Source: Reyranella humidisoli
Lineage (GTDB): Bacteria > Pseudomonadota > Alphaproteobacteria > Reyranellales > Reyranellaceae
Assembly: GCF_019039055.1 (NCBI RefSeq)
Contig: NZ_JAHOPB010000002.1
Coordinates: 806,001 to 870,000 of the forward strand
Direction of reading: 5' to 3'
Length of the DNA stretch: 64,000 nucleotides
Position 1 is the first letter of the stretch. Every line of letters begins with the position of its first letter. A model generated the notes under the pieces. The model was not told the DNA's origin. It made no database searches and saw only the letters and a program-made list of their open reading frames with translations. A program made the translations under genes and the position numbers. Shown one piece after another: positions 16,169 through 19,833 of this stretch.

Positions 16169-16177
16169 CCCTTCATT

Positions 16178-16238
16178 GGAGCGCGCCACTCCAGTGGCGC
16201 TCATGAATGATGATTGCGCCACTGGAGTGGCGCGCTCC
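16178..16238. repeat. perfect 23-bp inverted repeat between serC and serA (family B, copy 1)
   Basis: The left arm at 16178-16200 (starting GGAGCGCGCCACTCC) is the exact reverse complement of the right arm at 16216-16238, with a 15-base spacer. Each arm contains its own smaller palindrome, GCCACT-CC-AGTGGC. A diverged copy of the same arms is at 60890-60962. It could cap serC messages or attenuate serA, but because it recurs elsewhere it is more likely a mobile or dispersed element. Confidence 0.85.
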
Positions 16239-16260
16239 CCTGACTCGAGGAGTATTGATA

Positions 16261-18382: not shown

Positions 18383-18937
18383 ATGGCACGGATCAGCGAG
18401 ATTGAGGAAGACGGCGGCGATCCCATCCTGAAGGCCACCTTCGACAAGCAGCGCGAGATGTTCGGCGGCCTGCTCAATCCGACCAAGGTGATGGCGCATT
18501 GTCCGCCGATCCTGCGCGCTGCCGGCATGCTCGGCCAGTCGATCGAGCAGTCGGGCCTTCTGCCCAAGGGGCTGCCGGCGCTGCTTTACGTGCGCGTCGC
18601 GACGATCAACGGCTGCCCGTTTTGAATTGATATCAATTCCAGCCGTGTGCTGGACACGACGGACGGCGGGATGGAGAAGCTGGCGGAGGTCACGACGTGG
18701 CGCGACAGCACGCTCTTCAACGAGGGCGAGCGGCTCGCGCTCGAATATGCCGAGCGGATCACCTACACCGACCGCAAGGTCGACGACGCGCTCGTCGACC
18801 AGCTCAAGCAGCACTACACCGAGGCCCAGATCGTCGAGCTGACGGCGGCCATCGCCATGGAAAACTTCCGCTCCAAGTTCAATCCCGCGCTCGGCATCGA
18901 GGCGCAGGGCTTCTGCATGGTGCCGAAACGCGGCTAG
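18383..18937 (+). CDS. AhpD/carboxymuconolactone decarboxylase-like candidate selenoprotein (TGA at codon 81)
   Basis: The reading frame 18383-18937 is continuous apart from one TGA at 18623-18625. Read through, it gives 184 residues of the AhpD/CMD family. The redox motif of the family is Cys-x-x-Cys (commonly NGCPYCIDMH); here it is NGCPF-[TGA]-IDIN, so the TGA stands exactly in place of the second active-site cysteine (C78, U81). The sequence downstream (RITYTDRKVDDALVDQL and IVELTAAIAMENFRSKF) is normal family sequence, which argues against decay. The AhpD histidine four residues after the second Cys is replaced by Asn85. A hairpin with a CGUGU loop follows 18 bases after the TGA. Selenocysteine insertion is the best reading; a frozen pseudogene is the alternative. 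A second TGA-containing gene starts 38 bases downstream. Confidence 0.85.
18639..18653 (+). promoter_or_regulatory. candidate bacterial SECIS element of the AhpD-like gene
   Basis: CCAGC (18639-18643) pairs perfectly with GCTGG (18649-18653) around the loop CGTGT. The loop begins 18 bases after the TGA. Bacterial SECIS elements are small hairpins in the coding region shortly after UGA, with a G among the first two loop bases; the G is the second base here. An alternative fold pairs CGTGT with ACACG around loop GCTGG. The first fold is preferred because the neighbouring gene has the same CGUG loop start. Confidence 0.7.
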
Positions 18938-18975: not shown

Positions 18976-19833
18976 ATGACCGACACTGTCCGCTATATGG
19001 ACCGCACGAGAGCCTACTATCGCGCGCTCGGCTATCCGTCGGATTATGTCTGGGCGCGCTTCGACGACGTGCCGTTCGCGCGTCTGTTCAAGCCGCTGTC
19101 GCAGGCCAGGATCGGACTCGTCACGACGGCGAGCCCGCCGGATCTCGGCAATCGCGATGTCTCCGGCAAACGGCAGGTCTGGTCGGGGGCGGTCTCGCCG
19201 GCGCCGGCCACTCTCTTCACCGGCAACCTCGCCTGGGACAAGGAATCGACCCATACCGACGACCGGGCCAGCTTCCTGCCGATCGAGGCCCTGCAGGAGC
19301 GGGTGGCGGAAGGCACGGCCGGTGGCCTGGCTGCGCGATTTCATGGCGTGCCGACGGAATACAGCCAGCGCAAGACGATGGAGATCGACGCGCCGGAGGT
19401 GCTCGAGCGACTGCGTGCCGACGGCGCCGATGTGGCCCTGCTCAGTCCGCTTTGACCCGTCTGTCACCAAACCGTGAGTTTGGTCGCCCGTCATCTCGAA
19501 GCCAACGGCATCCCGACCGTGATCGTCGGCTCTGCTCTCGACATCGTCGAATATTGTGGCGTGCCGCGTTTCCTGTTCACGGATTTCCCGCTCGGCAATC
19601 CCTGCGGCCCGCCATGGCGGCAGGATCTGCAACGCGTGATCGCCGGACAGGCGATCGATCTTCTCGGGAATGCCGAAGCGCCGCGCACGACGCTGCGCTC
19701 CGATGTCGCCTGGCCGTCCGACGACGATTGGCGGCCACGTTACGGGCGCGTGAAGCCGGAAGAGATCGAGCGCCTCAGGAAGGTGGGCGAGGAGCGGCGC
19801 GAGAGACAGGCGGAATCGAAGAGGCCTGGATAG
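18976..19833 (+). CDS. GrdB/PrdB-type selenoprotein B-family protein, candidate selenoprotein (TGA at codon 160)
   Basis: The frame runs from ATG 18976 to 19833 with one TGA at 19453-19455. With it read as selenocysteine the protein has 285 residues. The sequence around the TGA is LLSPL-[TGA]-PVCHQTV, that is U160-x-x-C163. This matches the active-site region of the glycine/sarcosine/betaine/D-proline reductase selenoprotein B family, where U or C precedes PVCHQT. Downstream LVARHLEANGIPTVIVGSALDI is also family-like, and both halves keep good coding character. A seven-base-pair hairpin with a CGUGA loop follows 17 bases after the TGA. True Grd/Prd reductases are anaerobic Stickland enzymes; in an alphaproteobacterium this homologue probably has another redox role, not known. 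It lies 38 bases after the AhpD-like selenoprotein gene, surely one transcript. Confidence 0.87.
19466..19484 (+). promoter_or_regulatory. candidate bacterial SECIS element of the GrdB-like gene
   Basis: ACCAAAC (19466-19472) pairs perfectly with GTTTGGT (19478-19484), closing the five-base loop CGTGA, which starts 17 bases after the TGA. The G in the second loop position and the distance fit the bacterial SECIS model. The loop matches that of the hairpin in the preceding gene at four of five bases. Confidence 0.8.

Follow-up and report, generated by a model that had tools for sequence, protein, structure and literature searches.

A predicted stand-alone selenoprotein of the PrdB/GrdB superfamily beside an AhpD-like selenoprotein in Reyranella humidisoli

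Within a 64,000-nucleotide stretch of the Reyranella humidisoli genome (hereafter the window), a gene of the PrdB/GrdB superfamily encodes, on comparative sequence evidence, an active-site selenocysteine by UGA decoding; it lies behind a gene for an AhpD-like selenoprotein (Table 1). The product predicted for the former gene belongs to a known and widespread kind, that of stand-alone PrdB-like selenoproteins. Our favoured account, which we hold to be likely, is that of a U-x-x-C reductase that is pyruvoyl-free and does not generally require AhpD.

Table 1 Predicted features of the selenoprotein locus, in window coordinates.
Feature	Position	Strand	Details
AhpD/CMD-like selenoprotein gene	18383..18937	+	184 aa, Sec at residue 81 (C-P-F-U)
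TGA decoded as selenocysteine, U81 (predicted)	18623..18625	+	Context GCPF-U-IDINSS; conserved in full-length close homologues of the order
SECIS-like stem-loop CCAGC-CGTGT-GCTGG, AhpD-like gene	18639..18653	+	3' of the AhpD-like TGA
PrdB/GrdB-superfamily stand-alone selenoprotein gene	18976..19833	+	286-codon frame, 285 aa product, Sec at residue 160 (U-P-V-C)
TGA decoded as selenocysteine, U160 (predicted)	19453..19455	+	Shared TGA column in relatives; alignment with the Terrisporobacter PrdB TGA
Bacterial SECIS-like stem-loop ACCAAAC-CGTGA-GTTTGGT, GrdB-like gene	19466..19484	+	Begins 10 nt past the TGA

The GrdB-like frame, its TGA and the PVCHQTV motif lie exactly where the first-pass annotation of this DNA had put them, and the frame contains a single TGA (..LLSPL-U-PVCHQTV..). 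A profile scan of named genomes returned 439 GrdB-like relatives, of which 80 were kept: 73 carry TGA and seven a cysteine codon (TGT/TGC), with the TGA at one alignment column across Proteobacteria, Myxococcota and Chloroflexota. This shared column bears out the earlier view that a pair of TGAs at catalytic redox positions is very unlikely to arise by chance. Nearly all homologues of both proteins in the order carry one TGA, and that of the AhpD-like gene is kept in all full-length close homologues (≥62% identity) seen there. Among named Reyranella species the GrdB-like protein is 87% identical in R. aquatilis, 72% in R. massiliensis and 65% in R. soli; across 54 aligned sequences U160, P161, H164 and Q165 are invariant and C163 is nearly so. 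The annotation had held that homologues ending at the TGA, with a degraded remainder, would speak against decoding. Constraint on the GrdB-like gene is instead similar on both sides, with dN/dS of 0.12–0.48 downstream of the TGA (beyond the hairpin) and 0.12–0.32 upstream; for the AhpD-like gene it is 0.05–0.33 beyond the hairpin and about the same upstream of the TGA.

Directly 3' of the TGA, most Sec forms of the GrdB-like gene carry the hairpin ACCARAC-CGTGA-GTYTGGT or a compensated variant of it. All seven pairs form in 71 of 88 Sec homologues, against 2.7% expected under a null in which codons are redrawn synonymously from family usage, and in none of 13 Cys homologues. The stem varies by compensatory pair types (AT/GC, CG/TA and AT/TA) that arise through synonymous changes. 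The AhpD-like hairpin behaves similarly: all seven tested pairs are present in 28 of 35 homologues (4.3% expected; pair types GC/TA/CG), the window copy having six of the seven. Folded as single sequences, the window copies make a weaker showing (z of −2.2 for the AhpD-like hairpin and an unexceptional −0.13 for the GrdB-like one), so the case for the hairpins rests on comparison. An Rfam search gave no SECIS family match at the GrdB-like site.

The host genome contains selA (565 bits), selB (466 bits), selD (298 bits) and tRNA-Sec, with selA, selB and tRNA-Sec clustered together. All nine tested genomes with a Sec form of the GrdB-like protein have selB; it was not found in any of five Bradyrhizobium genomes with the Cys form. 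Two metagenome-assembled genomes with the Cys form still have selB, so that losing the machinery does not by itself account for the Sec/Cys switch.

The upstream protein belongs with the CMD proteins, scoring 27.8 against PF02627 (cut-off 23) and possessing the C-x-x-U motif. In AhpD, the catalytic histidine lies four residues after the second cysteine of the CxxC motif. The window protein and 35 aligned homologues have an asparagine (UIDIN) where 2ijc has histidine; the activity of the AhpD-like protein itself is therefore uncertain, and a peroxidase should not be assumed. The Bmp8 debrominase (6ohi) is a distant relative of this protein, the homology being weak, and our literature search found no paper on a Bmp8-like dehalogenase role for it.

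Both TGAs are stops under translation table 11, and might accordingly be taken as genuine stops or sequencing errors, with the frames downstream decaying. This reading, and with it that of a pseudogene, is ruled out by TGA conservation, SECIS covariation and dN/dS, to which the Sec machinery adds a further counter-argument; we count it as vanishingly improbable. The same four lines, independent of one another, agree on selenocysteine at both TGAs, as had been proposed. Membership of the GrdB/PrdB superfamily, claimed from the redox position, likewise holds: the Sec column aligns exactly with the Sec of our reference PrdB, from a Terrisporobacter plasmid with adjoining prdA and prdC, and all 54 aligned relatives match TIGR04483 (PrdB). 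Both observations would suit a genuine component of a D-proline or glycine/betaine/sarcosine reductase whose partner has gone unrecognised. The window protein, however, reaches 66.4 bits against TIGR04483, far short of the equivalog cut-off of 300, and falls below the thresholds of TIGR01917 (22.3 against 602 bits), TIGR01918 (28.3 against 65 bits) and Pfam GRDB PF07355 (13.3 bits against a gathering score of 22), the last of which is matched at E ≤ 0.01 by 22 of the 54 relatives. It also lacks the GrdB-type UxxCxxC motif. Searching 76 genomes of the order for PF09338 (GrdE/PrdA type) gave no match, although the same search found prdA in the control record; this agrees with the earlier statement that classical Grd/Prd partner subunits are absent. 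PF04723 (GrdA) was likewise found in none of the 76, in a search without a positive control match. As the cut-offs are missed and no PF09338 partner was found, we regard the GrdB-like protein as a member of the superfamily that is neither PrdB nor GrdB, and an amino-acid reductase component as very unlikely.

A different alternative concerns the neighbour: the CxxU of the AhpD-like protein could be the specific partner of the GrdB-like UxxC, as GrdA is for GrdB, in a dedicated two-selenoprotein system. The gap between the two genes is 38 nt, as first reported (AhpD-like stop TAG at 18935–18937), and in a divergent species (G039) the AhpD-like stop and GrdB-like start overlap as ATGA. The pair is kept in 13 genomes with purifying selection on both genes, and the same genome has a second GrdB-like gene 35 nt behind a Prx-like selenoprotein gene. 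GrdB-like genes behind AhpD fall into a single clade (SH-aLRT 98), whereas in the AhpD tree G039 stands apart from the other pair genomes, and at least two changes are needed; the GrdB-like gene must thus have been placed or transferred behind AhpD repeatedly, or lost repeatedly, which also speaks for a dedicated system. Against this stands the distribution of the genes. Of the order's 76 genomes, 69 have the AhpD-like gene; by coordinate comparison, a GrdB-like gene adjoins it in 13 of them (a contig end truncates two of the 13 pairs) and not in the remaining 56 (in one of which, G043, the AhpD-like gene lies at the edge of a contig). The genus shares a conserved block, serC-serA-AhpD-Bug-FAD dehydrogenase-CaiB, in which AhpD mostly lacks GrdB, and elsewhere a close AhpD (E ≤ 1e-20) is missing in 23 of 28 other genomes, all reached through their GrdB-like loci, and present in five. 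A two-protein system is not general, because AhpD keeps its place by serA without GrdB and because those 23 genomes lack a close AhpD. The distinct two-protein selenium redox system suggested by the first-pass annotation is therefore unsupported as a general proposition, and a dedicated system seems to us unlikely. The annotation would have counted the lack of a conserved neighbourhood with the AhpD-like gene against the pair: conservation is indeed largely lacking, but the 13 adjacent cases remain. No recurrent partner of the wider family emerged among 53 same-strand neighbours classified by Pfam; a single family accounts for at most four of the 53 (CoA_transf_3, FmdA_AmdA), mostly in near relatives. 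Together, synteny and trees show the GrdB-like gene as an apparent local insertion beside a conserved AhpD. A shared operon is plausible in the Reyranella subclade, given the short gap and the overlap in G039, and a lineage-specific coupled pair is possible. That the subclade has a translationally coupled, pyruvoyl-free two-selenoprotein reductase of an electrophile—a counterpart to GrdA/GrdB that does not belong to the anaerobic Stickland enzymes—we judge to be quite unlikely.

For the stand-alone reductase that we favour, AlphaFold gives a confident model (pLDDT 94.5). Searching the PDB with this model gave no match at E < 0.001 (the matches listed have TM-scores of 0.37 or less and are unusable), and a profile search for solved relatives found none that is credible. 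An Asp/Glu-racemase-like fold is unsupported by structure comparison. Lacking a solved fold match at E < 0.001, our view of the active site rests on conservation. Sec160 would be inserted by SelB and tRNA-Sec, guided by the hairpin past the UGA, and the model places Sec160 and Cys163 where a helix of an alpha/beta domain begins, as a putative U-x-x-C redox pair. By analogy with PrdB and from the UxxC motif, the function best inferred is that of a U-x-x-C reductase. In the most likely chemistry, a small electrophile would be reduced by two electrons: the Sec160 selenolate may attack the substrate and Cys163 resolve the intermediate to give a selenenyl-sulfide, which a small redox protein or the thiols of the cell could then re-reduce. 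The pyruvoyl subunit needed by D-proline and glycine reductases is apparently unused here. One Reyranella lineage appears to have placed its GrdB-like gene behind an AhpD-like gene already at the locus, and co-expression of the two is therefore probable; in the lineage with the pair, the AhpD-like protein may serve as the reductant of the GrdB-like one, though not as a general requirement.

Further GrdB-like genes were encountered. The second selenoprotein pair of this genome (locus L001, 896–2754; contig C1, about 1056279–1058137) encodes a Prx-like protein (FFRGSW-U-PYC) and then a 390-aa GrdB-like protein (LLVPV-U-PACTRAV) with 29% identity to the window protein. This pair, with both TGAs, recurs in four more genomes of the genus (L199, L201, L202 and L205), and five other genomes have the L001-type GrdB-like gene without a Prx-like partner within the fetched stretch. 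Three loci (L097, 772–2511; L207; L208) hold tandem GrdB-like genes with one in-frame TGA each, reading U-PLDHQTV and then U-PVCHQTV. A paralogue of about 45% identity is near-universal in the genus (L090, 5600–6511, own genome C1:960659–961477; L098–L103, L115 and L116); in most of these loci a CoA-transferase family III gene follows directly, and in several species Cys replaces the Sec of the paralogue. In the window, a strong palindrome between serC and serA (16175–16242) gives scores for unrelated miRNA models on either strand and may be a small dispersed repeat.

The enzymes after which the PrdB/GrdB family is named are anaerobic and multi-subunit. The present locus represents a stand-alone PrdB-like branch in a named, culturable genus without a PrdA-type partner, and adds a pair of neighbouring selenoprotein genes; the genome has another pair of this sort. 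The Sec form here and the Bradyrhizobium Cys form without selB make up a natural Sec/Cys comparison, by which the family's function can be tested. Passages of the literature list PrdB-type UxxC and AhpD-like CxxU selenoproteins from 2005 onwards (PMC1088965) and count the PrdB type among the more abundant selenoproteins of surface-ocean metagenomes (PMC1088965, PMC2398784), both types being abundant in marine data (PMC2398784); in its relevant sections, a 2026 review (PMC13188914) adds no PrdB- or AhpD-like selenoprotein of such a kind. Our search for literature on Reyranella selenoproteins found nothing relevant. Nor did we find a description of the AhpD-like/GrdB-like arrangement, which, within the reach of our search, occurs in one genus only.

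Among known systems, the AhpD-like/CMD selenoproteins (COG2128, TIGR01926, NF053654) share with the upstream protein a CMD domain over the Pfam cut-off and the CxxU motif; against NF053654 itself the protein scores 134 bits, with a cut-off of 310. In the part of PMC2398784 that lists AhpD-like pairs, the neighbour differs from the GrdB-like one seen here. The surface-seawater 'Proline reductase PrdB' (PMC1088965, PMC2398784) resembles the window protein in being a UxxC, pfam07355-like protein of oxic habitats, a likeness by description and not a subfamily assignment; the relevant passages of these papers do not mention an AhpD neighbour. The NCBI name 'glycine/sarcosine/betaine reductase selenoprotein B family protein' covers homologues on plasmids of Roseomonas and Haematobacter, which carry Cys. 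Terrisporobacter PrdB, of D-proline reductase, is 30% identical to the window protein over 208 aa, with both TGAs in one alignment column and the U-x-x-C-H context in common; the window gene differs in having no PrdA/PrdC neighbours and longer N and C termini. GrdB differs in its UxxCxxC motif, where the window protein reads UPVCHQT. The AhpD-like protein is apparently not GrdA, and no GrdE-type partner was detected here, yet the grdAB operon of glycine reductase, with its two in-frame TGAs, sets UxxC and CxxU side by side just as this locus does.
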